A stretch of DNA of 64,000 nt from a bacterium (lineage in GTDB: Bacteria > CAIWAD01): positions 1 through 64,000 of the forward strand of contig JAUIFJ010000020.1 of NCBI GenBank assembly GCA_030429345.1, in the 5' to 3' direction. The notes under the pieces were generated by a model. That model was not told the origin of the DNA. It did not search any database and saw nothing but the letters and a program-made list of their open reading frames with translations. Position numbers and translations under genes: made by a program. Below, piece after piece: positions 5,172-23,194 of this stretch; position 1 is the first letter of the stretch; each line of letters starts with the position of its first letter.

Positions 5172-5492
5172 CTATCCTCTCAGGTCATTCAGTTGCGTCA
5201 CATCGCCGCTGGGGCGGCTGCGCGCCAGCGGGACGTAGATGCCCAGGGCCAGCACCACCTCGGCGGCGGCCAGGGCAATGAAGAACAGGGCGCTCAGCTG
5301 GCCGTCCAGCTTGCCCGGATGCAGCAGGTGGATCAGGGCAACCACCAGGACCGCGGCGCTGTTGACCATGATCTCGATCGCCAGCAGCAGGCCCATAGCG
5401 CTGCGGCGCGTCAGCAGGCCGTAGAGCCCGAAGGAGAACAGGGCCAGGCAGAGCAGCAGCCAGTGCTGGATTCCGACGGGGAAGAAACTCAC
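5172..5492 (-). CDS. nuoK: NADH-quinone oxidoreductase subunit K
   Basis: NuoK is a small three-helix membrane subunit of the complex I proton pathway, homologous to MrpC. At 106 residues it has the standard length. The helix 2 motif 'GLLLAIEIMVNSAAVLVVA' carries the conserved membrane Glu, and helix 3 ('FFIALAAAEVVLALGIYV') carries the second. It overlaps nuoJ by four bases. Confidence 0.95.
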   Translation of the reverse strand: MSFFPVGIQHWLLLCLALFSFGLYGLLTRRSAMGLLLAIEIMVNSAAVLVVALIHLLHPGKLDGQLSALFFIALAAAEVVLALGIYVPLARSRPSGDVTQLNDLRG

Positions 5493-8986: not shown

Positions 8987-9435
8987 GGCTTGCCCGGCTC
9001 CAGGATGAAGGAATCCTCGTAGTCCTTGCGCAGTGGCCAGCCTTCCCAGTCGTCTTCGAGGAAGAGCCGGCGCAGGTCCGGGTGCCCGCTGTAGAGCACG
9101 CCGAAGAGGTCGTATACCTCCCGCTCCTGCCACTCGGCGACGGGCCAGAGGGCGTTCAGGCTGGGAGCGACCGGCTGCTGGCGCGGCAGGTCACAGCAGA
9201 CGCGCAGAAGCTCGCCGCTTTCCGTGGAACACAGGAGCCACAGCAGGCGGATGTGTTCCCCTTCGGGATTGTCGACGGCCATGTGGTCGTTGAGCATGTC
9301 GAAGCCCTGCGCCTTCAGGGCCTGCATGCTGCCGATCAGGGCCGGCAGGGGAAGAAGCAGGCTGCGGGGTCTGTCGTCCGCGAGCAGCTCGGCGCCTTCC
9401 TTTCCCGCAATGAAATCTTCCAGCCAGTCGCTCAT
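8983..9435 (-). CDS. nuoC: NADH-quinone oxidoreductase subunit C (30-kDa)
   Basis: NuoC is a structural subunit of the complex I peripheral arm. The 30-kDa signature is clear: '[20 protein letters not shown]' then '[16 protein letters not shown]'. The ATG at 9435 overlaps the nuoB stop as ATGA and gives 150 residues, at the short end for the family, because the N-terminal domain is compact. The frame upstream of that ATG merely shadows nuoB. Confidence 0.94.
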
Positions 9436-10106
9436 CCTCGTTCTCCACGCCCGGGATAAGCGCCCTTGGCTCCGGGGTCGGAGACCGTGCGGCGGTATTC
9501 CTCGTGCACGTTGCGCCGTCCCTGTGCTTCGAAGAGCTCCAGCATCTCGGCCTGGATCTCCTGCTTCGTGATCCCTTCCGGCAAGGCCGCCGTGACCGGC
9601 GCGCGGCGCTCTTCGGGGTGCTTCAGTCCCGCTCGCTCCCGGATCATGCGCTGCAGGGTCAGGATGCCGTAGAACAGTCCCTCGGGGCGCGGCGGGCAAC
9701 CGGGAACGTAGACATCGACCGGAATCACGTCGTCGACCCCGCGCAGGGACGAGTAGCTGTGGTAGATGAAAGGGCCCCCGGAAATCACGCAGGCGCCGGT
9801 GGCGATCACATAGCGCGGTTCGGGCATCTGCTCGTAGAGGGTTCTCAGGGGCTGCGCCATGCGCTTGACAATGGTGCCGGCCACAATCAGCAGGTCCGCC
9901 TGGCGCGGGGAGGGGCGGGTGACCTCGGCGCCGAAGCGGGCCAGGTCATGATGCGAAGCGCCGCTTGCCATCATCATCTCGATGGCGCAGCAGCTGGTGC
10001 CGAAGGTCAGGGGCCACAGGCTGTTGGAGCGCGCCCAGGAGATGACATCCTCCAGGCGTGTCAGCAGCAGGTTCTGTCCCGGCCCTTCGGCATGTCCTAC
10101 AGCCAT
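9432..10106 (-). CDS. nuoB: NADH-quinone oxidoreductase subunit B (cluster N2)
   Basis: NuoB carries the terminal [4Fe-4S] cluster N2 that reduces quinone. The ligands are visible: the tandem Cys in '[18 protein letters not shown]', a Cys in '[15 protein letters not shown]', and a Cys in '[18 protein letters not shown]'. From the ATG at 10106 the protein is 224 residues, with a charged C-terminal extension of about 50 residues beyond the usual core. The start lies ten bases inside nuoA. A longer frame exists upstream but would overlap nuoA heavily and is rejected. Confidence 0.95.
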
Positions 10107-10447
10107 TCGAGCACCCTTTTCTTCCAGGCGTATACTAGCGCCAGCAGCAGGATGGAAATGAAGACCACGATCTCGATCAGCCCCACCAGGCCGACCTGGG
10201 CCTGGGCCATGGCCCAGGGGTAGAGGAAGGCTGCCTCCACGTCGAAGACCAGGAAGAGCAGCGCTACAAGGTAGTAGCCCGCGTGGAAGCGGACCCGGGC
10301 ATTGCCAACGAGTTCCGCGCCGCATTCGTAGGGCCGGGACTCCGTCTGCACCGCCGGACGAGGAGCCAGCAACCGCGAGAAGGCCAGGGCCCCTACGACA
10401 AGGGCCATCGAGAGCAGCAGCTCCAGGAATACAATCAGATAATTCAT
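10097..10447 (-). CDS. nuoA: NADH-quinone oxidoreductase subunit A
   Basis: NuoA is a three-helix membrane subunit at the base of the peripheral arm and the first gene of the operon. The 116-residue protein shows '[44 protein letters not shown]', here quoted only by key residues: the YECG loop, the RF...YYL...FDVE...PWA signature. The ATG at 10447 has CTGGAG a few bases upstream. An FNR/DNR-like palindrome at 10505-10518 sits at the spacing expected for activation of this operon. Confidence 0.95.
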
Positions 10448-10504
10448 GCGACTCCAGCAGGGAACCTACGCGACTGAAGCTAGCGAGCGCAAGATCCTGG
10501 CGAC

Positions 10505-10518
10505 TTGACCAAGGTCAT
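10505..10518 (-). promoter_or_regulatory. FNR/DNR-like site upstream of nuoA
   Basis: TTGAC-CAAG-GTCAT is an inverted repeat of the CRP/FNR-family type. Its centre (10511.5) is about 41 bases upstream of a point where a minus-strand -10-like TAGCTT (10477-10482) would place the transcription start, the classic class II activator geometry. The site assignment is by eye and the regulator is unknown. Confidence 0.55.
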
Positions 10519-10650
10519 GCCCGTTCGCGCAGGACTGTTCCGGCTGCCATTTTCTTTTTCCTGAAGCTGCGCCCAAGGATTTCCACTTCCGCGCCAGTGC
10601 TTGGCGCCCCTTGAAACCGACAAGATGGACAGAGGCAAGGGCGAGGGCGC

Positions 10651-10664
10651 CTGACGAAAGTCAA
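10651..10664 (+). promoter_or_regulatory. Second FNR/DNR-like palindrome in the nuo-cytochrome intergenic region
   Basis: CTGAC-GAAA-GTCAA has the same half-site spacing as its neighbours. It lies between the site assigned to nuoA and the site assigned to the cytochrome cluster and could be an auxiliary or shared operator. No matching -10 was seen at class II distance. Confidence 0.4.
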
Positions 10665-10718
10665 TCCAGGCATCCGCTGTGATTGAACGCTCAGAGTTTG
10701 CGCTTTGGCGCAGAGTGT

Positions 10719-10732
10719 CTGACATAAGTCAA
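10719..10732 (+). promoter_or_regulatory. FNR/DNR-like site upstream of the multiheme cluster
   Basis: CTGAC-ATAA-GTCAA is centred at 10725.5. A -10-like TAATCT at 10755-10760 is exactly where class II activation would need it (start near 10767), leaving a short leader to the ATG at 10803. The 355-bp gene-free stretch 10448-10802 otherwise holds only a short GCGCCA/TGGCGC inverted repeat at 10591-10607. Confidence 0.55.
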
Positions 10733-10802
10733 GGATGCGGCTTATCCGAAAGGCTAATCTAGTGCTCGAATCGACGGGACGGACTTGTCAAAAGGTGCCC
10801 AC

Positions 10803-11009
10803 ATGCAACTGCAATGGAAACTGCTGCTCAGCGGACTGCTGCTGGCCTTTCTCTATGGAGCCTGCGAGAAGATCGACCCGGAGAGCACGAGCGGACCGAG
10901 CCTCGGGGAAGAGGCCGTCGTGCTGACCTGCGAGGGTTGCCATGTGACACGGTCCTACCTGCGCAAGCTGGCCGTGGCGGAGGACGAGGCATCCTCCGGC
11001 GGTGGCTGA
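10803..11009 (+). CDS. N-terminal part of a multiheme c-type cytochrome lipoprotein, cut by an in-frame TGA
   Basis: The ATG at 10803 has AAAAGGTG just upstream. The 68 residues begin with a lipoprotein-type signal 'LLLSGLLLAFLYGAC' (Cys 21; the -3 Tyr makes the lipobox imperfect), followed by one heme motif, CEGCH, and a Ser/Gly-rich linker 'EASSGGG'. A TGA at 11007-11009 then stops the frame. The same frame continues without another stop for 443 codons ('GGSVAQLEPW...', the next entry) to 12341. The two pieces are therefore one gene of about 512 codons whose export signal is separated from most heme motifs by a single stop. A GGA-to-TGA change in the glycine linker would explain it. Confidence 0.7.
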   Translation: MQLQWKLLLSGLLLAFLYGACEKIDPESTSGPSLGEEAVVLTCEGCHVTRSYLRKLAVAEDEASSGGG

Positions 11010-11018
11010 GGCGGCTCC

Positions 11019-12341
11019 GTGGCTCAGTTGGAGCCCTGGCAGAAAGTCTGGATCAACGCCGATTCCTCCTTTTCCGAGATCGACCCGACACACGGCCGCC
11101 TGGGGTGTATCACCTGTCATGGCGGAACCGAACCGGTCATCGCGCAGTCCGACAGCCGCACGGACCTCTTCTACGCCATGATGGAGGCCCACGAGGCGGA
11201 GATCCACTACGACAGCAACGACAATCCGGATCTGGACGAGGTCTTCGACCACAGCCTGATCCATGATCCCAGTGTTCTCGAGTTGGCCGAGGGAAGCTGC
11301 GGCAATGCCAATTGCCACCCGCAGATCGTCGAACTCAACGCGACCAGCATGCATACCCAGCTCTGGGGGGAAAAGCACAAGGTCGCCCTGCGCGCCGGTT
11401 TCAACAGTTTCGAGGACTGCCCGGCCATCCTGCAGGACGGATACCAGGGCGAGTGCACCAGTTGTCACACGACCTGCGGGCAGTGTCATGTATCACGCCC
11501 CCACAGTGTTCACGGCGGCTTTCTTGACAGCCACCGCTTCCAGAAGACGCCCGACATGGAAAACAACTGCACCGCCTGCCACGGCTCCCGTGTCGGCAAC
11601 GACTGGACCGGCCACCTGGCGGGGAACGAGCCGGACGTGCACCAGAGCCTGGGCTTCGACTGCCTGACCTGCCACCAGGAAGACCTGCACGGCGACGGGC
11701 GGACGGACTACACGAGCCGCTACGAGGTCGAGGGCGTTCCCAGCTGCAAGGATTGCCACAGCAACGGTGCCGACAACAACATCTTCCATGAGACCCATTG
11801 GCCCGCCGGAGAAGGCGGAGTCGGCCTCGCCTGCCAGGTCTGCCACAGCCAGCCCTACACGAGCTGCATCAATTGTCACACGAACGGTGTCTGGAGCAGC
11901 GAGGACAACGAGGGCTATGCCGAGTTCCCGACCTTCCGCATCGGCTACAACAGCGGCAATTGGCCGACACACCCCCGCGAAGAGGAAGAGTACGTGGTCG
12001 TGCGGCACGTTCCTGTCAGCGAGGACAGCTACGAGCCCTGGGGCTGGCCGGTTCTCGAGGACTGGGCCGATTTCGAGACCTGGCAGTATTCCACGCCTCA
12101 CAACATCCAGGTCATCACGCGGCAGACGGAAGTCGCCGCCCAGGGACCGGTGGACGCCAGCAATTGCTGGATCAGCTGCCATGCCGTCGAAGGCTTCGAG
12201 GACAACAAGAACCTGTTCCTCTATCGAAGCTATGTGGACAGCCTGGGAGAATCCGTCAGCAATCCCACCCAGACCGAGCGGCAGGCGAACCGGAACGTGA
12301 CCGTCAACTCGCGCGTGCCGACCTACTGGCTGAACGACTGA
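11019..12341 (+). CDS. Multiheme c-type cytochrome (main body; continuation of the upstream interrupted frame)
   Basis: This is the heme-rich bulk of the cytochrome. Taken alone it would start at the GTG at 11019, but there is no ribosome-binding site or signal peptide there, so it cannot be an exported cytochrome by itself. Heme-binding motifs in order are CITCH, CGNANCH (CX4CH), CTSCH, CGQCH, CTACH, CLTCH, CKDCH, CQVCH, CINCH and CWISCH (CX3CH). With CEGCH upstream that makes about 11 potential hemes, two in non-standard spacings. Long spacers between motifs suggest a folded periplasmic or surface electron carrier rather than a simple wire. It heads a plus-strand cluster with a rhodanese lipoprotein, two further multiheme cytochromes and a barrel. 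Its electron partner is unknown. Confidence 0.8.
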   Translation: MAQLEPWQKVWINADSSFSEIDPTHGRLGCITCHGGTEPVIAQSDSRTDLFYAMMEAHEAEIHYDSNDNPDLDEVFDHSLIHDPSVLELAEGSCGNANCHPQIVELNATSMHTQLWGEKHKVALRAGFNSFEDCPAILQDGYQGECTSCHTTCGQCHVSRPHSVHGGFLDSHRFQKTPDMENNCTACHGSRVGNDWTGHLAGNEPDVHQSLGFDCLTCHQEDLHGDGRTDYTSRYEVEGVPSCKDCHSNGADNNIFHETHWPAGEGGVGLACQVCHSQPYTSCINCHTNGVWSSEDNEGYAEFPTFRIGYNSGNWPTHPREEEEYVVVRHVPVSEDSYEPWGWPVLEDWADFETWQYSTPHNIQVITRQTEVAAQGPVDASNCWISCHAVEGFEDNKNLFLYRSYVDSLGESVSNPTQTERQANRNVTVNSRVPTYWLND

Positions 12342-12350
12342 CAACAACGA

Positions 12351-12397
12351 GGAGCCGAAGGCGGTCCAGGTGTGGTATACCACCGTCCTTCGGCTCC
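12351..12397 (+). other. Long RNA hairpin between cytochrome and rhodanese genes
   Basis: GGAGCCGAAG (12351-12360) pairs perfectly with CTTCGGCTCC (12388-12397). The loop region contains a second palindrome, TGGTATACCA (12372-12381). No T-tract follows, so it is more likely an mRNA-processing or stability element, or a partial terminator, than a strong intrinsic terminator. Confidence 0.6.
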
Positions 12398-12415
12398 CTA
12401 AACGGGAGAGTCCCA

Positions 12416-14251
12416 ATGAAGCTCACGCACAAAATTCTGGCCGGCTTCCTGATGGTATCCGTTGGCATTTTCAGCGGCTGCTCGGATGACGACGACGACA
12501 GTTCGGGCACCGGCCCGACCACTTCGCAGTTCGATCTGCTGGTCGATGTCACCGATGACGGCATGCTGGACTGGACGACCGGCTGGATCAAGGACGCGGA
12601 CTATGTGTCCGACAACCTGGCGGATCTCTATGTGATCGACCTTCGCGCCGCCGACGCCTTCGCCGCTGGACATATTCCCGGCGCGATCAACGCCACCCCG
12701 ACCGATCTTCCCGTCGTGGCCGCCGCCAGCGCCGGCAAGGACATTGCCCTGGTGTGCTACACCGGCCAGACGGCCGCCTGGGGCACCATGGCCCTGCGCA
12801 TGCTGGGCTATGAGTCGGCCTTCTCGATGAAATTCGGCATGAGCGCCTGGAACCAGGAATTCTCCGCACCCTGGGACAACAACGTCGGCAGCGACTACGT
12901 GAACGATTTCATCAATGATCCTTCGCCCGCCCTGCCCGAGAACGACGCTCCCACCTTGAGCGGCAGCTATGAGACGGGCAACGACGTGCTCGCCGCCCGC
13001 GTGCTGGAAGTGCTGGCCGAGGGATACATGGGCGTGTCCGGCGACGAGGTGATGACCGCCCCCGGCGACTACAACATCGTCAACTACTGGGCCGAGAGCG
13101 ATTACACGGGCATCGGTCACATTGATGGCGCACTGCAGGTGGCCCCCGGCACCCTGACCAGCGACCAGAACCTCTCCGCCTTCGATCCCGACAATCCGAA
13201 CGTGATCTACTGCTGGACCGGCCAGACCGGTTCGCTGATGAGCTTCTACCTGCGCGTGCTCGGCTTCGAGGTCTACAACCTGCGCTTCGGCGTCAACAGC
13301 ATGATCCACAGCGCCCTGCCCAGTCACACCTGGACCGTCGGCGGCCTGGCCGATTTCAACTTCGACTACCAGACCGGCTCCAGCGTCGACGAATTCGCCC
13401 TGCTGAGCGCCTATGCCGACGAGCATTTCGGCGACTGGAACAACGGCTGGATCAAGGACGTCGCCTATACCTATGACCTGATGAGCGACCTCTTCATCAT
13501 CGACCTGCGCAGCGCCAGCGACTACAATGCCGGACACATCGAAGGCGCGGTCAACGTGACCCTGACCGACATGCTCACGGTGGTCTCGACCCAGAACACG
13601 GACAACCTGGAAGTGGCCGTGGTCTGCTATTCGGGCCAGACGGCCGCCTTCGCCACCATGGCCCTGCGCATGGCCGGGCACAATGCCTATTCGATGAAGT
13701 TCGGCATGAGCGCCTGGCGTGACGAGTACAACGGTTCCTGGATGAACAACATCGGCAGCGAGTACAGCGCGGACATGATCAACGATCCCAGTCCGACACT
13801 GCCCGAGTACGGCTATCCGACGCTCAACACGGGCGAGACCGACGCCATGAGCATCCTGATGGCCCGCATCGACGCGGTGATGGCCGAGGGCTTCGGCGCC
13901 AATGCCGTCAGCAACGACGCGGTGATGGATGTGCCCGAGGATTATCATATCTACAACTACTGGGCCGTTGCCGACTACGAGGGCGAAGGCCACATTCCAG
14001 GCGCCTACCAGCTGGATCCGGGCAGCGTGACCACCAACGGCCTGCTGAACGCCCTGCATCCGACGGAGACCAATGTGCTCTACTGCTGGACCGGCCAGAC
14101 CAGCGCTCTCACGACCTGCTACCTCAACGTGATGGGCTACGACATGCTGAGCCTGAAGTTCGGCGCCAACGGCATGATGTACGACGCGCTGAGCGGCCAC
14201 AAGTGGCCCGAAGCCGGCGTCGGCGCCAACTATCCCGTGGTGACCGAGTAG
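12416..14251 (+). CDS. Lipoprotein with four tandem rhodanese-like domains
   Basis: The 611-residue protein starts at the ATG at 12416, with GGGAGAG as ribosome-binding site. A lipobox 'IFSGC' (Cys 22) and an Asp-rich linker follow. Four rhodanese-like domains have active-site loops CYTGQT (Cys 114), CWTGQT (Cys 266), CYSGQT (Cys 404) and CWTGQT (Cys 557). Domains 1 and 3 resemble each other ('GWIKD', 'DLR', 'AGHI.GA.N.T') and domains 2 and 4 resemble each other ('YNYWA..DY.G.GHI.GA'), so a two-domain unit was duplicated. Domains 2 and 4 lack the usual Asp-x-Arg. Rhodaneses transfer sulfane sulfur via a persulfide on the loop Cys; the substrate here is unknown. Rhodanese lipoproteins also occur in some extracellular electron-conduit gene clusters, as I recall for the Geobacter ext loci. 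Confidence 0.85.
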   Translation: MKLTHKILAGFLMVSVGIFSGCSDDDDDSSGTGPTTSQFDLLVDVTDDGMLDWTTGWIKDADYVSDNLADLYVIDLRAADAFAAGHIPGAINATPTDLPVVAAASAGKDIALVCYTGQTAAWGTMALRMLGYESAFSMKFGMSAWNQEFSAPWDNNVGSDYVNDFINDPSPALPENDAPTLSGSYETGNDVLAARVLEVLAEGYMGVSGDEVMTAPGDYNIVNYWAESDYTGIGHIDGALQVAPGTLTSDQNLSAFDPDNPNVIYCWTGQTGSLMSFYLRVLGFEVYNLRFGVNSMIHSALPSHTWTVGGLADFNFDYQTGSSVDEFALLSAYADEHFGDWNNGWIKDVAYTYDLMSDLFIIDLRSASDYNAGHIEGAVNVTLTDMLTVVSTQNTDNLEVAVVCYSGQTAAFATMALRMAGHNAYSMKFGMSAWRDEYNGSWMNNIGSEYSADMINDPSPTLPEYGYPTLNTGETDAMSILMARIDAVMAEGFGANAVSNDAVMDVPEDYHIYNYWAVADYEGEGHIPGAYQLDPGSVTTNGLLNALHPTETNVLYCWTGQTSALTTCYLNVMGYDMLSLKFGANGMMYDALSGHKWPEAGVGANYPVVTE

Positions 14252-14266
14252 TCTTGAAGTCTTTCG

Positions 14267-14292
14267 CGGCGGGGCGTTCCGGCGCCCCGCCG
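14267..14292 (+). terminator. GC-rich hairpin after the rhodanese gene
   Basis: CGGCGGGGCG (14267-14276) pairs with CGCCCCGCCG (14283-14292) around a 6-nt loop. Only ATCTTG follows, so termination would be inefficient; partial termination with readthrough into the octaheme gene is plausible. Confidence 0.5.
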
Positions 14293-14318
14293 ATCTTGAA
14301 TCAAAGGGAACGCGCCTC

Positions 14319-15167
14319 GTGCATACCGGACTTCTTCTAGCACTGCTCCTGTCCTGGGCGCCGCTCCTGGCCGCCGGGAGCTGGCCAGCGCCCCCGGCTG
14401 CGGATTCCCTCTTCGACGGCAGGTACCTGACCTTGCCGGATCGCCCGGACCCTCACGGGGATCCCGCTGCCTGCCTGGCCTGCCACACTTCCGGTGAGCC
14501 GACCCTGCAGGATTTGCGGCCGGAAAGCTGCCGCGAGTGCCATGACCCGCGGGCGCACCATCGCCGCATTCACCCGCTGGGCATGGTGCCGTCCGACGAG
14601 GTTCCGATTCCCGCCTTTATGCCCCTGGATGAGGGCCTGCTCGCCTGCGGCACCTGTCACAGCAAATCCTGCACTCCGGATCGCTCCAATCGCAACTCGC
14701 TGCGCGGAGCGCCCTGGCCGCAGCGACAGGATTTCTGCTTCCAGTGCCACAAACGGGATTTCTTTCCCGGCCTGGACCCCCACCATCGGCCCTTGCGCGC
14801 GGTGGACCAGGAACGCCTGCTGGAGCTGGGCCTGACGGTTTCCTGCGACCTCTGCCACAAGGAAGATGAACAGGTCGATCTGTTGTCCGAGTCGGATCAC
14901 TTGTGCCGGCGCTGCCACCCCAGCCGGGATCACGAACTGCGCCATATGGGCTTCTCGATGGACCCGGAGCGGAATCCTGCAGAGGCCGCGCTCTATCGCG
15001 AGTACATCGAGCTGGGCGGCCGCGAGCTGCCGCTGGGCTCCGAGGGACGCATCGGCTGTACGACCTGTCACACGCCCAGTCCGGAGTGCGGAGACCAGAC
15101 GGTCTATCCGCCCCGCGGCCTGCGCCTTCCCCTGGACCGGATCTGCCATGTCTGCCACGGTTTCTAG
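14319..15167 (+). CDS. Octaheme c-type cytochrome, exported
   Basis: The 282-residue product starts at a GTG at 14319 with AAAGGGA upstream. It has a Sec signal peptide ('LLLALLLSWAPLLAAG'). Eight CXXCH motifs are visible: CLACH, CRECH, CGTCH, CFQCH, CDLCH, CRRCH, CTTCH and CHVCH, the last three residues from the C-terminus. The density of one heme per about 35 residues is that of a periplasmic electron-transfer wire such as MtrA- or OmaB-type proteins, though I cannot assign it to either family. It overlaps the next gene by 20 bases and sits two genes from an outer-membrane barrel, the arrangement expected for a porin-cytochrome conduit. Confidence 0.88.
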   Translation: MHTGLLLALLLSWAPLLAAGSWPAPPAADSLFDGRYLTLPDRPDPHGDPAACLACHTSGEPTLQDLRPESCRECHDPRAHHRRIHPLGMVPSDEVPIPAFMPLDEGLLACGTCHSKSCTPDRSNRNSLRGAPWPQRQDFCFQCHKRDFFPGLDPHHRPLRAVDQERLLELGLTVSCDLCHKEDEQVDLLSESDHLCRRCHPSRDHELRHMGFSMDPERNPAEAALYREYIELGGRELPLGSEGRIGCTTCHTPSPECGDQTVYPPRGLRLPLDRICHVCHGF

Positions 15168-16137
15168 AGTCGCCTCGCGCTGCGGCGCGCTTGCCCTGTT
15201 GTGCCTGCTCTGCGCCTGCTCCATCCTTCCACGCGCTTCCGCCCCTCATCTGATCGTGCTGGCGCCCGACGACACCCTGTACCAGGACCTGGGAGACTGG
15301 GAACTGCTTCCGGAGCGGGCCTGGCACAAGACCGCGCTCCGCTGGCTGGCGGGCGACGAGGATCTTGCCATCCGGCCCCTTGACGACCTGCGGCCCAGGG
15401 GAGCGGCCTTGTGGAGCGCTTCCGCCGCAGGAGTCTTTCGCATGGACTCCCTCGAGGCGCGCGGCGAGCCCAGGCCCTTCGATCGCCGACGGGCGCGGGG
15501 TCTGGCGCCCCTGGCCGACGGCCGCCTCTGGTTGAGCCTGGACGAGCCTGCCCGGGTCGAACAGCGGTCGCCAACGGGAAACTTGCTGCAGCGGATCGAA
15601 CCGCCACAGGGCTGGAACCAGCCGGGGCGGCTGGTGGCAGACGAAAGGCGACTCTGGGTGCTGGACCCGGGCGCTTCCTGCCTGCAGCTCTTCGATGCCG
15701 AGGGCACCTGGCTGAAGAGAATCAGCGGTCCCCCGGACCTGCCCATGCTGGCGCCACTGGATGCCTGCGGCGACGGCGAGGGCGGGCTGTGGCTGCTGGA
15801 CGCCTGGCGCGGCGGTCTGTATCACTTCAGCGCCGAGGGCGAACTCCTGCCCGGGATCTCGCTTCGGACCCAGGGGCCGGGCGCGCTGAGCCTGGCGCAT
15901 TCCCTGGCCCGGGATACGCGCGGACACCTGCTGGTGCTCTGCCTGGACGAGTTGCGTCTGTATACGGACAAAGGAGCGCTGGTGGCCCGGATCCAGGACC
16001 GCCGCATGCTCGGCGATCCGATCCTCGTCCGTTGCGACACACGTGACCGCATGTTTCTGCCGCAGCGGGACGGCGGCCTGCGGATCTTCGGCTTCCGCCC
16101 CCTGCATGGCGCGGCCGCCTGGGAGGTGCAGCCATGA
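15148..16137 (+). CDS. Beta-propeller (NHL-like) lipoprotein
   Basis: The 329-residue protein begins inside the end of the octaheme gene at the ATG at 15148. The signal 'GALALLCLLCAC' ends in a lipobox Cys, so an outer-membrane-anchored lipoprotein is likely. The body has recurring 'G.LWL.D....V...S..G' and 'LWVLDPGASCLQLFDAEG' type blades, suggesting a five- or six-bladed NHL-like propeller. No enzymatic residues are recognisable. The next gene starts four bases before its stop (ATGA). Propeller proteins encoded beside porins and multiheme cytochromes may act in assembly or docking; that role is inference. Confidence 0.7.
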   Translation: MSATVSRVASRCGALALLCLLCACSILPRASAPHLIVLAPDDTLYQDLGDWELLPERAWHKTALRWLAGDEDLAIRPLDDLRPRGAALWSASAAGVFRMDSLEARGEPRPFDRRRARGLAPLADGRLWLSLDEPARVEQRSPTGNLLQRIEPPQGWNQPGRLVADERRLWVLDPGASCLQLFDAEGTWLKRISGPPDLPMLAPLDACGDGEGGLWLLDAWRGGLYHFSAEGELLPGISLRTQGPGALSLAHSLARDTRGHLLVLCLDELRLYTDKGALVARIQDRRMLGDPILVRCDTRDRMFLPQRDGGLRIFGFRPLHGAAAWEVQP

Positions 16138-17891
16138 GAATCCTGCTATTTCTGCTGGTGCTGGCAACGCTGCCCCCCCGGCTTGACGCCGGACCCGCCG
16201 AGCGGCTGGAGGCCCTGCGCCGCTGGGACGGCGGGGCGGGTTGGACCATGGACGGGAGGCTCAGCTGGCGCAGCAGCTGGCACAACCCGGGCGCGGAAAA
16301 AGCCCTGCCGGGCTCCCACCCCGCGGAGAAGAGGCTGCTGCTGCACAGCGGACGGCTCCTGATCGGCGCGCACAGCACCCTGGCTTCCGACTCGCGCTTC
16401 GACTGGTCGCTCGCGGCGGGCGGAACGTTGGCCGAGAACAGCCTCTACGCGCAACGGATCCTCACCCCGGAGGGACGGGTGCGACTGGACTTCCGTCCGC
16501 TGGACTGGCTGGGAATCGGCGGACAGGCGCGCTACGGCTGGCGTCTGGCAAATGCCTTTGCCAGCGACAGCCTGCGGCGGCGGGACCTGATTGCCGCCCT
16601 GAACCTGCGCTTGGTCCTGCCCTCGTTTTTGCCTGGAGAACTACAGCTTCAGGGAGGCAACCGCCGGATCTTCGAGGAGGACTTCCTTGAGGACCAGCGA
16701 TTCGGACGAGTCGATCTGCGCATGCGGCCCCTGCGAGACCTGCGGCTGGAATTCTTCGGCGAAAGTCAAGGCTATGGCCGTGACAGCCTTGACTATGAGT
16801 TGCAGCGCAATACGGCGGGACTGCGCCTTTCAGGTCGATTGCCATGGGGCATTCGCCAGGAAGGGCAGTTGTCGCGCCGCTACAGGGAAGGCCGGCAGCG
16901 CTGGCTAGTACGGGAATCACTGCTGCTGGAGCCCCACAGGGAGCATCGCCTGGCCCTGCGGTTGTCCAGTGACTGGAGCGACTGGCAGGAGCGCTCGCTG
17001 TACCGGCGCTGGATTCGCGGTACATGGCAATGGCTGCCCCTGGAGTGGGTCGGAGCCCGTCTTCAGTTCCGCAGCGATCTGCGGGACTTCGACGAGGAGG
17101 TGCTGAGCCATGAGCGCAGCATCGGCTTGGGGCCCTGGTTCAAGCTGCGCCCCGGCGCGGAGAGTCCGTTGGCCCGGATGTGGCCCGGCGCGCGGGATCT
17201 GTCCCTGGATGGCAACCTGGACCTGGGCTACCTTGAAAGCTCCACCTGGGGCAAGGGACTGGAAGGCCGACTGCAGGCGGATGCCCTTCTGCCCGTCTAC
17301 TGGACGAAGGACCTGACAAGCCGCCTGCAAAACCAGCTGCAGCTGAATACCCTGCGCCTGCAGGAGGCAGAAGACCTTGCGCAGCGACTTGGCCGGCCGG
17401 TGGAAAAGGAGCTGCAGGCCGAAGTCAACAACCGCCTGAGCCTCAGCAGCGAGGCATCGCTGGACCGCTGGCGGCTGGGGCACCGGGTGCACTGGCAGCG
17501 CCAGGCAGGCAGCGAACTGCTCTTCGAGTTGGACAGCTTGCGCAATACCCTGGGCAACGAAATCTGGCTGCGCATGCCGCTGGGAAGCTTCCAGCATTTG
17601 CGCCTGTCGGGCATGCACCTGCGGCATACCCTGGCGAATCCCATGCGAGCGGTGGAGTACCGACTGACAGGCGGCTGGCAGCTGCAGCTCGAGCGCCTGC
17701 GCGCCGGCGGCGAGGCGGTCTGGAGACCGGCGAGACGCGCCATCAAGGAGCGCTGCTGGCTCAACGCTTTCCTGGACGGCCGCTACCGCAAACTGCGCGC
17801 CCGTCTCTCCCTGCAATTCGCCGGGGACCCGAAGGACTGGTTCAACAAGGATACGCAGTGCTGGCTGCAAGTGGAGAGGAGCCTGTGGTGA
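16134..17891 (+). CDS. Outer-membrane beta-barrel protein, candidate cytochrome-conduit porin
   Basis: The 585-residue product has a cleavable signal peptide ('ILLFLLVLATLPPRLDA'). It consists of alternating polar/hydrophobic strands rich in Trp, Arg and Leu and ends in an aromatic residue (…ERSLW), typical of BAM-inserted barrels. No sequence family was recognised. Flanked by an octaheme cytochrome and a dodecaheme cytochrome and overlapping both neighbours by four bases, it is the obvious candidate for an MtrB/OmbB-like sheath that lets hemes cross the outer membrane. The functional assignment rests on context and predicted fold, not on a motif. Confidence 0.65.
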   Translation: MRILLFLLVLATLPPRLDAGPAERLEALRRWDGGAGWTMDGRLSWRSSWHNPGAEKALPGSHPAEKRLLLHSGRLLIGAHSTLASDSRFDWSLAAGGTLAENSLYAQRILTPEGRVRLDFRPLDWLGIGGQARYGWRLANAFASDSLRRRDLIAALNLRLVLPSFLPGELQLQGGNRRIFEEDFLEDQRFGRVDLRMRPLRDLRLEFFGESQGYGRDSLDYELQRNTAGLRLSGRLPWGIRQEGQLSRRYREGRQRWLVRESLLLEPHREHRLALRLSSDWSDWQERSLYRRWIRGTWQWLPLEWVGARLQFRSDLRDFDEEVLSHERSIGLGPWFKLRPGAESPLARMWPGARDLSLDGNLDLGYLESSTWGKGLEGRLQADALLPVYWTKDLTSRLQNQLQLNTLRLQEAEDLAQRLGRPVEKELQAEVNNRLSLSSEASLDRWRLGHRVHWQRQAGSELLFELDSLRNTLGNEIWLRMPLGSFQHLRLSGMHLRHTLANPMRAVEYRLTGGWQLQLERLRAGGEAVWRPARRAIKERCWLNAFLDGRYRKLRARLSLQFAGDPKDWFNKDTQCWLQVERSLW

Positions 17892-19552
17892 GGACCTGGA
17901 AGAGTTCCGGCATCGGGCTGCTGCTGGCAGCCGCATTTGCGGCCGCTCCCGCGGGCCAGTGTCAGACGGATGCTGTCGATTCCCTGCTCCAGGCGCGCCG
18001 CCACAACGGTCTGGCGGGTTCGCCACACCAGGTGCTCTCGGAGCTGGCCGGTGCCCAGGCCATGGATGAAGTGAGCCGGGCTGCCTGGGCCTGCCTGCTC
18101 TGTCATCCCTCGCCGCCCAACGACGAGCCGCCCACCCTCTGGGACGATTTCCGTGAGCCGGCGAATCTGGACCTTCATTCCCCGAACCTGTGCCTGAGCT
18201 GCCATGACGGCCTGCTGGCCACGGGTTTCACCTCGCCCTGCGTAGGGCGCCGCCAGGTGGAACTGAGCCAGCTGCGCCCCCCGGCCTCACCTGAGTCCGC
18301 CGGTCATCTCTTCGCTTTTGCAGACTCGAGCGCCGGTGCGCCTTCGACGATCGCGCCGCGCGACCTGCCGGTGGTTGATCACCGGGTTTCTTGCACGACC
18401 TGCCACGATCCGCATAGCTCGCAGCAGGAGTTCATGCTGCGCAAGGATCCCGAAGCCGGAGAACTTTGCCTCGCCTGCCATCGTCTGGAGGGGTGGAGTT
18501 TCGGCAGCCATGGAGGATCGCCGGACCAGCACGACGAGGACCTGCGGCAGATCGCCTGCGCCGCCTGTCATCGCATTCATGCCCCGGATGCCCGACCGGC
18601 GCTGCTGAAGGGCGGCGAGGCCCAGACCTGCCTGGGCTGCCACGACGGCAGCGTCGACTGCGAGGACGAGGTGGCGAGCGCGGAAGACCTGACCAGCGTC
18701 TTCGAGAAGCCCTACCGGCACCCCGTGGGCTTCATGGAAGGGGCGCAGGAAGGCGGCGGCTGGGTCGGCTTCTTCGCCGGCAGCGGCGAGCCCTATGCTG
18801 TCGAATGCAGCTCCTGTCATAATCCCCACGCCGCCGGACACCCCGAGGATCCGGATGTCTTCGGCGGCCTGGACGGCAGCCTGCGCGGCGTGGAGGGCGT
18901 TTCCCCCCTGGGCATGCGTCGCCCTGCGGAGCGCGAGGCCGAGATTTGCATGATGTGTCACGGCTTCACGGCGGACGGTCCCCTTGTCACGCGCAACCCC
19001 TGGGGAACCGGCCGGGACGTGGCAGAGGACTTCTCGCTGGCCAACCGAAGTTTCCACCCGGTGCTGGGCACGGTGTCCGGCGCAGGCAGCCCGAGCCTCA
19101 AGCTCGAGGCCGGAGGCACGGCCCGCGGCAACCTGCCCGCTGAAGCGATCGGCCTGCAGACCCTGAACTGCAGCGACTGCCACGGCAACGACGATCCGCT
19201 GGGTCCGCAGGGGCCCCATGCCTCCAACATTCCGGGCTTGCTCAAGGCGGAATTCGACAGCTACGGCCAGGGCGGTCAGGCCGATCCGCTGTGCATGCAG
19301 TGCCACGAGGGCGGCGTGCTCTTCAGCTCGCAGAGTTGGCGCTGGCACAGCCTGCATGCCGACGCGGGCTTCAGCTGCGCCGCCTGCCACGATCCTCACG
19401 GATCCCGCACCTTGGACGGCCTGCTCAACCTGGACCGCCGTCCCTGGGCCGAGGCCGTCGAGGGCGAATTCCTCATCGAGAAGATCGACCTGCATACGGG
19501 CACCTGCACGATCAAGTGCCATGGCTACGTACACAAGGAGGTCCGCTGGTAG
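17888..19552 (+). CDS. Dodecaheme c-type cytochrome, exported
   Basis: Starting from the GTG at 17888, which overlaps the barrel's stop as GTGA, the protein is 554 residues with a signal peptide ('GIGLLLAAAFAAAPAGQ'). Twelve heme motifs follow: CLLCH, CLSCH, CTTCH, CLACH, CAACH, CLGCH, CSSCH, CMMCH, CSDCH, CMQCH, CAACH and CTIKCH (CX3CH). Many are followed by 'DPH', 'NPH' or 'HG', the doubled-CXXCH layout of periplasmic and surface multiheme proteins. It may be the external or terminal cytochrome of the conduit. The cluster ends with the strong terminator at 19578. Confidence 0.85.
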   Translation: MRTWKSSGIGLLLAAAFAAAPAGQCQTDAVDSLLQARRHNGLAGSPHQVLSELAGAQAMDEVSRAAWACLLCHPSPPNDEPPTLWDDFREPANLDLHSPNLCLSCHDGLLATGFTSPCVGRRQVELSQLRPPASPESAGHLFAFADSSAGAPSTIAPRDLPVVDHRVSCTTCHDPHSSQQEFMLRKDPEAGELCLACHRLEGWSFGSHGGSPDQHDEDLRQIACAACHRIHAPDARPALLKGGEAQTCLGCHDGSVDCEDEVASAEDLTSVFEKPYRHPVGFMEGAQEGGGWVGFFAGSGEPYAVECSSCHNPHAAGHPEDPDVFGGLDGSLRGVEGVSPLGMRRPAEREAEICMMCHGFTADGPLVTRNPWGTGRDVAEDFSLANRSFHPVLGTVSGAGSPSLKLEAGGTARGNLPAEAIGLQTLNCSDCHGNDDPLGPQGPHASNIPGLLKAEFDSYGQGGQADPLCMQCHEGGVLFSSQSWRWHSLHADAGFSCAACHDPHGSRTLDGLLNLDRRPWAEAVEGEFLIEKIDLHTGTCTIKCHGYVHKEVRW

Positions 19553-19577: not shown

Positions 19578-19611
19578 AAAGTCGACATCGCACCCGGTGT
19601 CGACTTTTTTT
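19578..19611 (+). terminator. Rho-independent terminator of the multiheme cluster
   Basis: AAAGTCGACA (19578-19587) and TGTCGACTTT (19598-19607) form a perfect 10-bp stem with a 10-nt loop, followed by TTTT. It closes the cluster that starts at 10803. The following stretch to 19819 holds no gene I can support. Confidence 0.88.
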
Positions 19612-19819
19612 ATGGAATCCGCATCCCTTTCATCCCCCTTCTTTCCGTCGCCCGCCCTGATTCCGCAAGGCAGCGTTTTCTGTGCTGTTCCGTTGAGCTT
19701 CTCGTCCGGGCGCGGAACTCCTTGCAGGATCGCGTCTGCAATGGTGTCTTGTTTTATGTGATAACGGTGTTCTTACAGAGCGTCGCATCCCTTGAGAGAT
19801 GCCAAAAGGAGGTCGTCGA

Positions 19820-20461
19820 TTGACCGCCGTCCGAGCCTACAGCCGGGCCGAGCAATGGGCCCACACCTTGAGTCACGGCTTCGGCCTGCTGCTGGCGCTG
19901 GCCGGCGCGACGGCTCTTGTGGCGCGCAGCGCAGGCCTGGGCAGCGCCTGGCCGATCGTCGCCTGCGCCGTCTACGGCGCGACCCTGGTGCTGCTCTACG
20001 GCGCTTCGACCCTGTATCACGCCCTCGATCCGCGACGCCGCTGGCCTCGTCTGCTGGATCACGCGGCGATCTACCTGCTGATCGCCGGGACCTATACGCC
20101 CTTCCTGCTGCTGCATCTGCGCGGTCCCTGGGGCTGGTCGCTCTTCGGAGTGGTCTGGGGCGGCGCGCTGGCCGGCATGCTGCTGGTGCTGTTCTCCCTG
20201 CGACTGCCGGCCTGGGTGGCCAGCCTGCCCTACCTGCTCATGGGCTGGGCCTGCCTCGTCGCACTTCGTCCCTTTCTGGAAAAGGTCCACACGGCGGGGC
20301 TGCTCCTGCTGCTCGCCGGGGGGCTGTGCTACACGGGGGGAATCGTCTTCTACCTGTGGCGGCGCCTGCCGTGGAACCACGCGCTCTGGCACCTGTGGGT
20401 GCTGGCGGGAAGCGTGTTCCATTTCCTGGCGGTCTGGTTCTCGCTCCCCGCAGCCCCCTAG
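19820..20461 (+). CDS. trhA: Hemolysin III / TrhA family membrane protein
   Basis: This is a seven-helix membrane protein of the PAQR/hemolysin-III superfamily, linked in bacteria to membrane-energetics homeostasis. A TTG at 19820 is the best start: AAAAGGAGG ends seven bases upstream, whereas the ATG at 19799 has no such signal. That gives 213 residues. Signature elements are 'AHTLSHGFGLLLALAG', 'LYGASTLYHALD', 'DHAAIYLLIAGTYTPF' and a final 'HALWHLWVLAGSVFHFLAV' with the metal-type histidines. It is monocistronic and convergent with the kinase gene. Confidence 0.9.
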   Translation: MTAVRAYSRAEQWAHTLSHGFGLLLALAGATALVARSAGLGSAWPIVACAVYGATLVLLYGASTLYHALDPRRRWPRLLDHAAIYLLIAGTYTPFLLLHLRGPWGWSLFGVVWGGALAGMLLVLFSLRLPAWVASLPYLLMGWACLVALRPFLEKVHTAGLLLLLAGGLCYTGGIVFYLWRRLPWNHALWHLWVLAGSVFHFLAVWFSLPAAP

Positions 20462-20482
20462 CGGCCGCTTCGGGCGCTCCGC

Positions 20483-23194
20483 TCAGGCAGCGGATTCGCG
20501 GCGGTCCAGGTGCTGCTCCAGGACGGCCCGCAGGGCTTCGGGCTGCAGGGGCTTGGCCAGGAAATCGCTCATGCCCGCTTCCAGGCAGCGCTCGCGGTCT
20601 TCGGGCATGGCCCAGGCGGTCAGGGCCACGACCGGTGTGCGAGTGTGCCTGTCGCCCGCATCTCCCTGCCGAATGCGCCGCGTGGTCTCGAAGCCGTCCA
20701 GCAGGGGCATGGCGCAGTCCATCAGGACCAGGTCGAAGGCTTGGCTGCGCAGGGCCTGCAGCGCTTCCTCGCCGTTGCGCGCTTCCACGCTTTCAAGATC
20801 CAGCTTGTCGAGGAATCCCCGCAACACCAGTCGGCTTTCGGGATGATCGTCCGCGACCAGCACCCTTCCGCTGAAAGCGCCTTCCCCGGCTTCGGAGGAT
20901 CGTCTGTCCGGAAGGTGCTGCAGGGGGTGGCGGGTTTCGCCGCGAAGCAGACGCTTCAAGGCCAGCCGCAGCTTTTCTTCGCCCATGGGTTTGGCCAGGA
21001 CCAGCAGCCCCAGATCTGCTGGCGGGGGGCCAAGTCGCTGCAGCATGCCCTGCCTCATCAAGAGGAGCAGGCTCAGGCGCTCGTCGCCCAGGCGCTTGCG
21101 GAAGGACTGCTGAAAGGCCCGATAGCCCTGCGCCAGGGGAGGACGGTCCCAGATCACCTGCAGCGGTCCCTCGCAGCGATGCCGTTCTTCCGCGAGCCAG
21201 TCCAGCGGGTCCCGTCCCTCCGGCAGACAGAGAACACGGCGCCCCAAGCGCTGCAGCAGCTCTTCCAGATAGTGCCGCTGCGCCCTTGATGAGGGCAGCA
21301 GGCGAGTCTCCACGGCCGGGAGCAGTTCCGTGTCCGGCTGGCCCTGTGGCTGCAGGGGCTTCAGCTGCACCGTGAACCAGAAGGTGGAGCCCTTGCCCGG
21401 AAGGCTGTTGACGCCGATGCTGCCGCCCATCTGCTCGCAGAGCTGCCTGCAGATGGAAAGTCCCAGGCCGGAGCCGCCGACTTTCCTGGCAGTCTCGCGA
21501 TCGACCTGCTGGAAGCTGCGGAAGAGGGTCTCTTTCTGCTCCGCGCTCAGGCCGATGCCCTCGTCCTTGACTTCGAAGCGCAACTGGCCCGTCGAGCGGC
21601 CTTCCATGCAGCGGATCTGGATCGATCCGCCCTGCGAGAACTTGATTCCGTTGTGGATCAGGTTGACCAGAACCTGGCGCAGGCGGTTGGGATCGCCCAG
21701 GTAGCGCTTTCCTGGCAAGACGCTGGCCGGACAGAGTAGTTCGATGTCCTTTTCCTCGGCCTGCAGGGCCAGGGTGCCGCCGATCTCGCCCAGCAGGTCC
21801 GCCAGGTCAAACTCGACTTCCTCCAGCACCAGTTTTCCCGCCTCGATGCGCGACATGTCGAGCACATCGTTCAACAGGCTGAGCAGCGACTCGGCGCTGC
21901 GGTGCGCCAGGTGGGCCAGCTGCTGCTGTTCCGTCTTCAGGTCGCTGTCGAGCAGCAGTCTCAGCAGCCCGAGCACGCCGTTCATCGGTGTGCGGATCTC
22001 GTGGCTCATGTTGGCCAGGAACTCGCTCTTCGTGCGGTTGGCGCGCCGGGTTTCCTCCATGGCCAGGGTGAGCGCGCGACGGGCCTTCTGCTCCTGGGTG
22101 ATGTCGCGGAAACTCCAGACCCGTCCCAGGAAGCGCTCCTCGTGCCGCATGGGGCGAACCGTCCATTCGAAGCTGCGGCCGTCCTGCAGCTCGAGCTGGG
22201 TTTCGTAGGCCTCATCGCTGGCGCGAATCACCTTCATTTCGCTGTCGAAGACTTCCGGTTTCAGACAGGCCTCGCGCAGGCGCCGCAGCAGCGGCTGCAG
22301 CCGGCGGCGCTCGAGCAGGGCCGGCTCGAGCCGCCAGTAGCGGGCGAAGCGACTGTTCCAGCGCAGCAGGCGATCCTCCGGGTCGGTGACGAGGGTGCCG
22401 TTCATCGAGGCCTCGAGGGTCGCTTCCAGCTGCCCCAGGGTATTTTCCAGGCGCAGCTCGCTTTCCTTGCGCGTGCTGATGTCCGTTCTCAGGGCCACGT
22501 ACTGCATGGGTTTGCCGGATGAGTCCAGGGTCGGCACAATCGTCGTCTGCAGCCAGTAGAGGTGCCCGTCCTTGGCCCGGTTGCAGATCACCCCCTGCCA
22601 GGTCCGGCCATGGGTGATCTCGCGGTACATTTCGCGGAAGAACTCTTTTGAATGCATGCCGGAATTGAGCAGGCGATGGTTCTGCCCGATCAGCTCGGAA
22701 CGCGCGTAGCCGCTCAGCTCGACGAACTTGTCGTTGCAGTAGGTAATGCTCCCCCGCAGGTCGGTCATGGCGACAATGGCGTGCTGGTCCAGCGCCTCCT
22801 TCTGCTGGTGGAGGAGCTCGCCTGCCCGTTCCACCTGCCGGGTCAGGGACTGTCGCTGCCGGGCCTCCTCCTGTCGCAGGCTGCGCAGGCGGGAAACCAG
22901 TTCCGCGCTTTCACCTTTGCTGTCTTCCAGGTCGGGATCCGCCTCGTCGAGGGCCAGGCGGAGCAACTGGCGCTGCAGGCGGCGTCTCAACCGCTGTTCA
23001 CGCAGGGCGAAGGCGAAGAGGGTGAACAGAAGTGCCGCGAAGAGCAGTTCCGTCCAGGAGAACTCGATCTGCAGCAGGGGGGCCGCAAGCGCGGGACGAA
23101 ACAGGCACAGCAGGAGAAGGGCGCTCAGGCGGCCCTTGGCGACGGGGAAAACGGATCCGGGTTGGCGGCTAAGAAGTGGCGACATGGAATGCAT
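20483..23194 (-). CDS. Hybrid sensor histidine kinase with two PAS domains and a C-terminal receiver
   Basis: The 903-residue protein has two N-terminal hydrophobic segments (about 20-65), a coiled coil (about 70-135), PAS domains at about 135-250 and 255-370, HisKA with SHEIRTP (His 398), and a HATPase_c domain with N-box NLIHNGIKFS and G-boxes DEGIGLS and GGSGLGLS. Residues 620-745 look like a degenerate receiver without a clear phosphoacceptor Asp. A true receiver (about 775-895) follows, with Asp 826, the acidic pair 782-783 and Lys 881. The absence of an Hpt domain or partner regulator in the window means the output is unknown. It is transcribed towards trhA and away from the protease gene. 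Confidence 0.92.
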   Translation of the reverse strand: MHSMSPLLSRQPGSVFPVAKGRLSALLLLCLFRPALAAPLLQIEFSWTELLFAALLFTLFAFALREQRLRRRLQRQLLRLALDEADPDLEDSKGESAELVSRLRSLRQEEARQRQSLTRQVERAGELLHQQKEALDQHAIVAMTDLRGSITYCNDKFVELSGYARSELIGQNHRLLNSGMHSKEFFREMYREITHGRTWQGVICNRAKDGHLYWLQTTIVPTLDSSGKPMQYVALRTDISTRKESELRLENTLGQLEATLEASMNGTLVTDPEDRLLRWNSRFARYWRLEPALLERRRLQPLLRRLREACLKPEVFDSEMKVIRASDEAYETQLELQDGRSFEWTVRPMRHEERFLGRVWSFRDITQEQKARRALTLAMEETRRANRTKSEFLANMSHEIRTPMNGVLGLLRLLLDSDLKTEQQQLAHLAHRSAESLLSLLNDVLDMSRIEAGKLVLEEVEFDLADLLGEIGGTLALQAEEKDIELLCPASVLPGKRYLGDPNRLRQVLVNLIHNGIKFSQGGSIQIRCMEGRSTGQLRFEVKDEGIGLSAEQKETLFRSFQQVDRETARKVGGSGLGLSICRQLCEQMGGSIGVNSLPGKGSTFWFTVQLKPLQPQGQPDTELLPAVETRLLPSSRAQRHYLEELLQRLGRRVLCLPEGRDPLDWLAEERHRCEGPLQVIWDRPPLAQGYRAFQQSFRKRLGDERLSLLLLMRQGMLQRLGPPPADLGLLVLAKPMGEEKLRLALKRLLRGETRHPLQHLPDRRSSEAGEGAFSGRVLVADDHPESRLVLRGFLDKLDLESVEARNGEEALQALRSQAFDLVLMDCAMPLLDGFETTRRIRQGDAGDRHTRTPVVALTAWAMPEDRERCLEAGMSDFLAKPLQPEALRAVLEQHLDRRESAA

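Follow-up and report, generated by a model that had tools for sequence, protein, structure and literature searches.

The Mtr, Pio and Omb-Omc porin-cytochrome conduits, by which bacteria pass electrons across the outer membrane, follow a plan in which a membrane barrel is combined with inner and outer multiheme cytochromes; these are not known to contain selenocysteine (Sec) or rhodanese. A different assortment of parts is found in the Geobacter extHIJKLMNOPQS operon, whose neighbourhood holds a rhodanese lipoprotein, an outer-membrane barrel, a Sec-containing multiheme, several multihemes and a cytochrome b. A Geobacter strain with extHIJKL as its only conduit partially reduces Fe(III) and Mn(IV) oxides (PMC6148476), and deletion of extI impairs the reduction of selenite and tellurite (PMC5877670). 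The Sec of this operon lies in the pentaheme ExtKL (NF040886), a multiheme c-type cytochrome with one selenocysteine that is found with a rhodanese in some operons. Sec-containing members are also annotated in GenBank for the octaheme tetrathionate reductase family (TIGR04315), for which sulfur-compound chemistry is possible (PMC13188914). Finally, in clusters 5-T/4 of Dethiobacter alkaliphilus, the octaheme DealDRAFT_1917 is encoded together with a rhodanese-domain protein and is upregulated under thiosulfate respiration (PMC10376724); it is described as SirA/Otr-related, with no Sec reported.

Here we describe six genes of an uncultured Delongbacteria-like bacterium (assembly GCA_030429345.1, contig JAUIFJ010000020.1), found within an analysed window of 64,000 nucleotides, that appear to wire electrons across the outer membrane. 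The plan resembles that of extHIJKLMN, but the predicted selenocysteine sits in a different protein and the barrel is not ExtI-like. The first gene carries an in-frame TGA that is almost certainly read as selenocysteine, and the heme protein that it encodes almost always occurs beside a rhodanese lipoprotein, which suggests an unstudied and widespread way of respiring sulfur (or selenium) at the cell surface.

A six-gene cluster and its predicted outer-membrane conduit

The cluster was first noticed in a sequence-only reading, which proposed a candidate extracellular electron conduit built from six same-strand genes with about 31 heme motifs, and this observation is confirmed: the six genes are real, and the motifs total 31. 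Three details required correction. Gene 1 is open only if the TGA at codon 69 is read through, a feature that the earlier reading did not mention although it is the most informative one. The barrel had been described as flanked by two cytochromes with four-base overlaps, but its immediate upstream neighbour is the propeller lipoprotein, while downstream it does overlap the dodecaheme. A regulated promoter had also been claimed, but no sigma-70-like promoter was found upstream of gene 1; the claimed terminator, in contrast, corresponds to a terminator-like hairpin. The arrangement is not due to chance, since all six genes recur in the same order in three other genomes of the family, with extra genes inserted, and the propeller, barrel and dodecaheme are syntenic in three sister genomes.

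Features of the cluster, in positions of the analysed window
Feature	Position	Strand	Description
Gene 1	10803..12341	+	11-heme lipoprotein cytochrome (512 aa), 9 CX2CH, 1 CX3CH and 1 CX4CH; in-frame TGA read as selenocysteine at residue 69 (GGG-U-GG); distant ExtM homologue
TGA codon	11007..11009	+	predicted selenocysteine 69
SECIS-like hairpin	11021..11035	+	stem 11021-11025 / 11031-11035, loop AGUUG, 16 nt between UGA and loop
Gene 2	12416..14251	+	lipoprotein with four rhodanese domains (a duplicated two-domain unit); catalytic Cys114, 266, 404 and 557; acidic SDDDDD stretch after the lipobox Cys
Gene 3	14319..15167	+	octaheme c-type cytochrome (8 heme motifs), probably periplasmic
Gene 4	15148..16137	+	propeller-like (NHL in relatives) lipoprotein
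Overlap of genes 4 and 5	16134..16137	+	ATGA
Gene 5	16134..17891	+	predicted outer-membrane beta-barrel, about 24 strands predicted
Overlap of genes 5 and 6	17888..17891	+	4 nt
Gene 6	17888..19552	+	dodecaheme c-type cytochrome, 11 CX2CH and 1 CX3CH (paired CXXCH repeats)
Terminator-like hairpin	19578..19607	+	13 bp, with T tract, at the end of the cluster

The interpretation of the cluster as a conduit is partly supported. A barrel, multihemes and lipoproteins are conserved as a block, and a cytochrome b561/multiheme module lies beside the block in relatives and elsewhere in this genome. In Krumholzibacteriota, the same cytochrome-rhodanese pair sits beside a barrel-like ORF and a decaheme of the DmsE/MtrA family that scores above the curated cut-off of its model. 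The structural model of gene 5 is beta-barrel-like but of low confidence (pLDDT 51), so that its fold matches say only that it is an outer-membrane barrel; that the parts form a physical complex carrying electrons is inferred from these gene contents. The earlier claim that none of the components matches a named conduit is only half right, because rhodanese-containing conduits are already described (PMC6148476) and gene 1 is a distant homologue of ExtM. For the barrel the claim holds: no Pfam or NCBIfam barrel model matched gene 5, including the MtrB/PioB models, a profile comparison gave no match to ExtI (NF040900), and no sequence match was found in the PDB. Since the multihemes show MtrC/MtrF-like domain hits and the overall plan is that of a porin-cytochrome conduit, this might be an ordinary conduit to Fe(III), Mn(IV) or an electrode in which rhodanese and Sec are accessories for the repair or protection of surface thiols. 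We consider this unlikely, as metal reduction needs no Sec, and the strict co-retention of Sec/Cys with rhodanese described below is hard to explain if both are accessory.

Predicted selenocysteine in a distant relative of ExtM

The in-frame TGA occurs in gene 1 of all four family genomes and in other phyla. In an alignment of 85 family members, the column of the TGA holds Sec in 55, Cys in 23, another residue in 6 and a gap in 1, so that 78 of 85 carry Sec or Cys. The genome itself encodes tRNA-Sec(UCA), SelA and SelB. The hairpin that follows the TGA fits the criteria for bacterial SECIS elements (a loop of 3-9 nt, a stem of 4-16 bp, a G in the first two loop positions and a spacing of 16-37 nt; PMC13188914), and across the alignment it shows 31 compensatory cells against 8 in shuffles, with 5 of 6 pairs covarying. 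Only this covariation was informative: the folding energy of the single sequence near the TGA does not stand out from shuffles, the single-sequence folding z-scores of the Sec genes did not differ from those of the Cys genes, and a search of Rfam near the TGA returned nothing. Mechanical ORF calling starts gene 1 at GTG 11019, after the TGA, which would fit a true stop, an assembly error or a pseudogene. However, the signal peptide and heme 1 lie upstream of the TGA and are lost together with the Sec in such a call, and with the TGA conserved in independent genomes of several families and Cys at the same column elsewhere, this possibility is very improbable. Selenocysteine is thus well supported by sequence, its presence in the protein being inferred.

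The relationship of gene 1 to known families is remote. At profile level it is homologous to ExtM (hhalign probability 99.6, E 1.6e-23), and 35 of 73 family members match the ExtM model (NF040943) weakly, although gene 1 itself has no match to this model, whose equivalog cut-off is 800 bits; it is therefore a homologue of ExtM and not an equivalog, and ExtM lacks the Sec loop. Identification as ExtKL was rejected, since gene 1 does not match NF040886, one of 73 relatives matches it only weakly (E 0.005), and the Sec of ExtKL lies in another context, the C-terminal GHxIPDG-U-PTPNR. Identification as an octaheme tetrathionate reductase was rejected likewise: gene 1 has no match to TIGR04315, and one of 73 relatives matches weakly. 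Searches of the PDB returned nothing for gene 1 alone and weak matches to generic multiheme cytochromes with the profile, and a Foldseek search with a predicted structure, in which hemes are not modelled, gave no meaningful match. No NCBIfam model matches gene 1, and the 2026 review of the prokaryotic selenoproteome, in the parts consulted, names other Sec multihemes only; this looks like an undescribed selenoprotein family.

The rhodanese partner and a proposed sulfur relay

Gene 2 gives four Pfam rhodanese (PF00581) stretches (E 4.4e-45), each with an intact active-site loop, C-[YW]-[ST]-G-Q-T, as expected of a catalytically competent rhodanese. The sequence-only reading had left open whether the tandem rhodanese reflects sulfur chemistry at the cell surface or a structural use of the fold; as all four catalytic cysteines are kept, the structural use is unlikely and we rejected it. 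The family scan found at least 569 relatives, of which 80 were kept. A rhodanese lipoprotein with intact catalytic cysteines adjoins the cytochrome in 77 of 77 scorable Sec/Cys loci and in 0 of 7 loci that lost the residue. The best tree places 7 losses, of which 4 independent pairs rest on strongly supported branches, none of them discordant; with so few, the phylogenetic sign test alone is not significant (p 0.125). We nonetheless regard the link between Sec/Cys and rhodanese as well supported. An acidic stretch follows the lipobox in 53 of 56 rhodanese homologues and resembles the surface lipoprotein export signal SDDDD of Bacteroidetes (PMC5080379), so surface exposure is inferred from a signal defined in another phylum.

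The explanation that we favour, with moderate confidence, is that the outer end of the conduit is a two-protein module, composed of the rhodanese lipoprotein and the 11-heme lipoprotein cytochrome, which carries Sec (or Cys in other phyla) on a glycine-rich loop between hemes 1 and 2. In this view, rhodanese would take sulfane sulfur from polysulfide, elemental sulfur, thiosulfate or a similar substrate as a cysteine persulfide and hand it to the Sec/Cys, and the hemes, fed from quinol through cytochrome b561/multiheme proteins, the octaheme, the barrel and the dodecaheme, would reduce the resulting Se-S (or S-S) bond, release sulfide and restore the selenolate. What the sequences support is the insertion of Sec, the lipoprotein signals, the intact rhodanese cysteines, the near-obligate partnership and the conservation of the conduit genes, whereas the surface location, the persulfide relay itself, electron transfer across the membrane, sulfur (rather than selenium or tellurium) as substrate and the reductive direction are all inferred, without substrate or expression data. 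Published parallels are the extHIJKL conduit with its rhodanese lipoprotein and, by analogy of gene content, the Dethiobacter octaheme DealDRAFT_1917 with its rhodanese-domain neighbour. On the other hand, some loci (L087, L112, L118 and L136 among those compared) carry the cytochrome-rhodanese pair with no obvious conduit genes within reach. The same relay could run in the oxidative direction, with the Sec/heme site oxidizing sulfide or mineral sulfide to sulfane sulfur that is stored on rhodanese while electrons enter the cell. The chemistry is reversible, cytochrome b561 proteins can reduce quinone, and an exported rhodanese has been linked to metal sulfide oxidation in Acidithiobacillus (cited in PMC6148476); however, no sulfide-oxidation genes were seen in the cluster, and Sec enzymes in anaerobes are mostly reductive, making this direction doubtful.

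Comparison with ext and distribution of the family

The closest characterized operon, ext, is tied to selenite/tellurite and metal reduction and not to sulfur, which speaks against our favoured reading. The cluster might instead be a distant counterpart of extHIJKLMNOPQS that reduces selenium or tellurium oxyanions, with the rhodanese carrying selenium as a perselenide and Sec used to handle it; a rhodanese lipoprotein, a barrel, a Sec multiheme and an ExtM homologue are shared. We think this unlikely, since neither the barrel nor the rhodanese is orthologous to ExtI or ExtH, with gene 2 matching no ExtH model (NF040901) and being unlike ExtH outside generic motifs, since the Sec is in a different protein, and since the Cys form is common in Ignavibacteria and relatives, which suggests a thiol function that does not need selenium. 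The gene order also differs, and the propeller lipoprotein and dodecaheme are additions. Among the ExtKL loci retrieved for this comparison, L163-L167 lack ext neighbours, while genuine ext operons came from L168, L169 and L172.

A broader reading, which remains tentative, is that the Sec/Cys multiheme and a surface rhodanese form an obligate two-protein persulfide (or perselenide) reductase plugged onto several unrelated outer-membrane conduits across the FCB group and beyond, which would constitute a previously unnamed selenoprotein family and a previously undescribed, molybdenum-free route of extracellular sulfur respiration. The co-loss of Sec/Cys and rhodanese gives a concrete, testable role for the rhodanese lipoproteins that are seen without explanation in electron conduits such as ExtHIJKL, and suggests a way for cells to respire sulfane sulfur or selenium compounds at the surface without molybdoenzymes. 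The family occurs in mostly uncultured phyla such as Neomarinimicrobiota, Calditrichota, Krumholzibacteriota and Delongbacteria, but Cys-form members are also found in genomes labelled Melioribacter roseus, a species with a cultured isolate, so the family may be approachable in the laboratory.

Predicted reading through of the in-frame TGA of gene 1

The six genes are present on one strand and carry 31 heme-binding motifs (11 + 8 + 12, in genes 1, 3 and 6), together with the four rhodanese domains of gene 2, a propeller-like lipoprotein (gene 4) and a barrel (gene 5), so that what the sequence-only reading had observed at this locus was confirmed in its essentials. Two of its details were not confirmed: the barrel, which had been described as flanked by two cytochromes with four-base overlaps, overlaps the propeller gene upstream and the dodecaheme gene downstream by four bases and is not directly flanked by two cytochromes, and although a terminator-like hairpin does end the cluster, no sigma-70-like promoter was found to match the claimed regulated promoter. 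Gene 1 is open only through an in-frame TGA, codon 69 of 512. A lipoprotein signal peptide, whose lipobox Cys21 is nearly invariant in the family, and heme 1 both lie upstream of this codon, so a start at the downstream GTG would lose both.

Several lines of evidence indicate that the TGA almost certainly encodes selenocysteine (Sec). Homologues at 56-58% identity in three genomes of the same family, at 38% in the same class, and in other phyla have TGA in the same place, mostly in the context GGG-U-GG, between hemes 1 and 2. A scan of the genome collection gave at least 569 relatives, and in the 85-sequence set built from the best 80 plus others, the aligned residue is Sec in 55, Cys in 23, another residue in 6 and unresolved in 1. 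The genome also encodes tRNA-Sec with anticodon UCA, SelA and SelB. In 34 Sec-type genes, a 6-bp hairpin with a GUU-type loop follows the TGA; 90% of cells pair, 31 cells carry compensatory changes against 8 in shuffles, and sliding the partner destroys the pattern. The hairpin in the window (loop AGUUG, 16 nt spacing) satisfies the bacterial SECIS criteria given in PMC13188914.

Coordinates of the features discussed, in the window and in the loci used for comparison
Sequence	Position	Strand	Feature
Window	1-10447	minus	Complex I-type genes (Nuo 49-kDa, 20-kDa and ferredoxin-like subunits)
Window	10803-19552		Six-gene cluster
Window	11007-11009		In-frame TGA of gene 1
Window	11019		GTG, alternative start of gene 1
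Window	11021-11025/11031-11035		Stem of the SECIS-like hairpin
Window	19578-19607		Terminator-like hairpin
Window	19799-23194	(minus strand, given with the kinase)	Haemolysin-III-like membrane protein gene and hybrid PAS histidine kinase
L221 (contig C92 of the window's genome)	4778-10534		18-heme, NHL propeller and 9-heme/cytochrome b561 genes
L209 (Neomarinimicrobiota)	3492-7916		Two gene 1 copies in tandem
L210 (Neomarinimicrobiota)	4218-8826		Two gene 1 copies in tandem
L086	8001-10021		Cys-form cytochrome and truncated rhodanese
L121 (Krumholzibacteriota)	4444-9482		DmsE/MtrA-family decaheme, barrel-like ORF, Sec cytochrome and rhodanese
L125 (Krumholzibacteriota)	4394-11366		DmsE/MtrA-family decaheme, barrel-like ORF, Sec cytochrome and rhodanese
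L168 (ext operon)	15191-16528		ExtH
L169 (ext operon)	15062-16429		ExtH
L172 (ext operon)	516-3038		ExtH

A near-obligate rhodanese partner and an exchangeable conduit

A rhodanese ORF homologous to gene 2 lies next to the cytochrome gene, nearly always immediately downstream. Scoring adjacency only in those loci with enough flanking DNA gives 77 with Sec/Cys and rhodanese, 7 with neither, and none of the mixed classes. On the best tree, from which the trait columns had been removed, both traits are lost 7 times, together each time; however, only 4 independent pairs sit on strongly supported branches, too few for the sign test alone to be significant. Most of these genomes are metagenome assemblies, and the host names used here are the submitters' labels. 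Two Neomarinimicrobiota loci (L209 and L210) carry a Sec copy of gene 1, its rhodanese, and then a second copy without Sec or Cys; scored as having a rhodanese, such a copy would be the one exception. At another locus, L086, a Cys-form cytochrome in a Sec-dominated clade is followed by a truncated, apparently decaying rhodanese. The catalytic loops of the rhodanese are kept, with four in the window protein (Cys114, 266, 404 and 557) and usually two elsewhere. Of the 56 rhodanese homologues with a recognisable lipobox, 53 have an acidic stretch after the lipid-anchored cysteine, and the window protein has CSDDDDD, which resembles the surface-export signal SDDDD of Bacteroides (PMC5080379). This suggests, but does not prove, that the rhodanese faces outside.

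In three sister genomes, the order is gene 1, gene 2 and gene 3, then (with ORF boundaries that vary between the three) a hexaheme, a cytochrome b561, a triheme, a 9-heme protein with a cytochrome b domain, an NHL propeller and an 18-heme protein, followed by genes 4, 5 and 6. In the window's genome, the 9-heme/cytochrome b, propeller and 18-heme genes sit instead on another contig, C92. Gene 5 homologues occur only in this family among 116 genomes tested, and although the barrel model is of low confidence, its matches are outer-membrane barrels, MtrB among them. In other phyla, the pair is joined to other conduits: a DmsE/MtrA-family decaheme (above the curated cut-off) and a barrel-like ORF in Krumholzibacteriota, where the Sec cytochrome and rhodanese follow them in what looks like an MtrAB-type conduit with a Sec surface cytochrome; a barrel-like ORF with a 12-heme protein in Calditrichota; and a barrel-like ORF with 4-, 10-, 11- and 14-heme proteins in a genome labelled Melioribacter. 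The barrel calls in these phyla rest on a crude amphipathicity score and no family match, and in four of ten loci inspected no conduit gene is within reach. So the pair is the core and the conduit is exchangeable.

Relation to the Geobacter ext operon

The nearest described system is Geobacter extHIJKLMNOPQS, which includes the rhodanese lipoprotein ExtH, the barrel ExtI, the selenoprotein ExtKL and ExtM with 12 hemes, among others (PMC6148476, PMC5877670), and real ext operons (loci L168, L169 and L172) were fetched for comparison. The gene 1 family is homologous to ExtM (hhalign probability 99.6, E 1.6e-23, from heme 2 to heme 8) and to ExtN, but ExtM has no Sec/Cys loop between hemes 1 and 2. 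ExtKL is a different pentaheme, whose Sec lies in a C-terminal motif GHxIPDG-U-PTPNR. ExtI and gene 5 are unrelated at profile level, and gene 2 does not match the ExtH model. The window cluster is therefore not a member of the ext family but would work on a similar plan with Sec moved to another protein, and the electron-conduit interpretation of the sequence-only reading, which had offered the cluster as possibly an undescribed type, is supported in part. No NCBIfam model covers gene 1, and, in a literature search confined to open PMC papers, the passages on Sec multihemes in the 2026 selenoproteome review name ExtKL, an octaheme tetrathionate reductase-type protein and a GSU2204-type barrel/CXXCH protein (PMC13188914). 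The ExtH proteins of the three fetched operons end in a flexible, often glycine-rich tail with a C-terminal Cys (GGGC, GGGGC and VVGC at the very end), reminiscent of the GGG-U-GG arm of gene 1. ExtKL selenoprotein genes in several genomes of the sampled Desulfobacteraceae-labelled phylum (loci L163, L164, L165, L166 and L167) stand alone, without ExtH, ExtI or ExtM neighbours, and ExtKL may have a role outside the ext operon.

Possible mechanism and genomic surroundings

The co-loss implies that Sec/Cys and rhodanese act on one another. The simplest chemistry would be the transfer of sulfane sulfur (or selenium) from the rhodanese cysteine to the loop Sec/Cys, followed by reduction by the hemes. 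The AlphaFold model of gene 1 (mean pLDDT 86) leaves the loop around Sec69 among its less certain regions, without regular secondary structure, which is compatible with a mobile arm. While the readthrough codon, the hairpin and the joint retention of Sec/Cys with rhodanese are drawn directly from sequence comparison, the substrate and direction of the reaction, as well as surface location, complex formation and activity, are inferred. A multiheme encoded in a cluster with a rhodanese-domain protein rises under thiosulfate respiration in Dethiobacter (PMC10376724), a parallel that rests on analogy alone, while the ext operon points to selenite/tellurite. On present evidence, we consider reductive sulfane-sulfur respiration about as likely as not, and reduction of selenium/tellurium oxyanions unlikely though still possible; sulfide oxidation seems somewhat less likely again, and metal reduction with an accessory rhodanese the least likely of the four.

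The Complex I-type genes lie divergently beside the cluster, so quinone-linked respiration genes are next to the conduit. On the other side, the haemolysin-III-like gene and the hybrid PAS histidine kinase follow the cluster, and the kinase could be its regulator.
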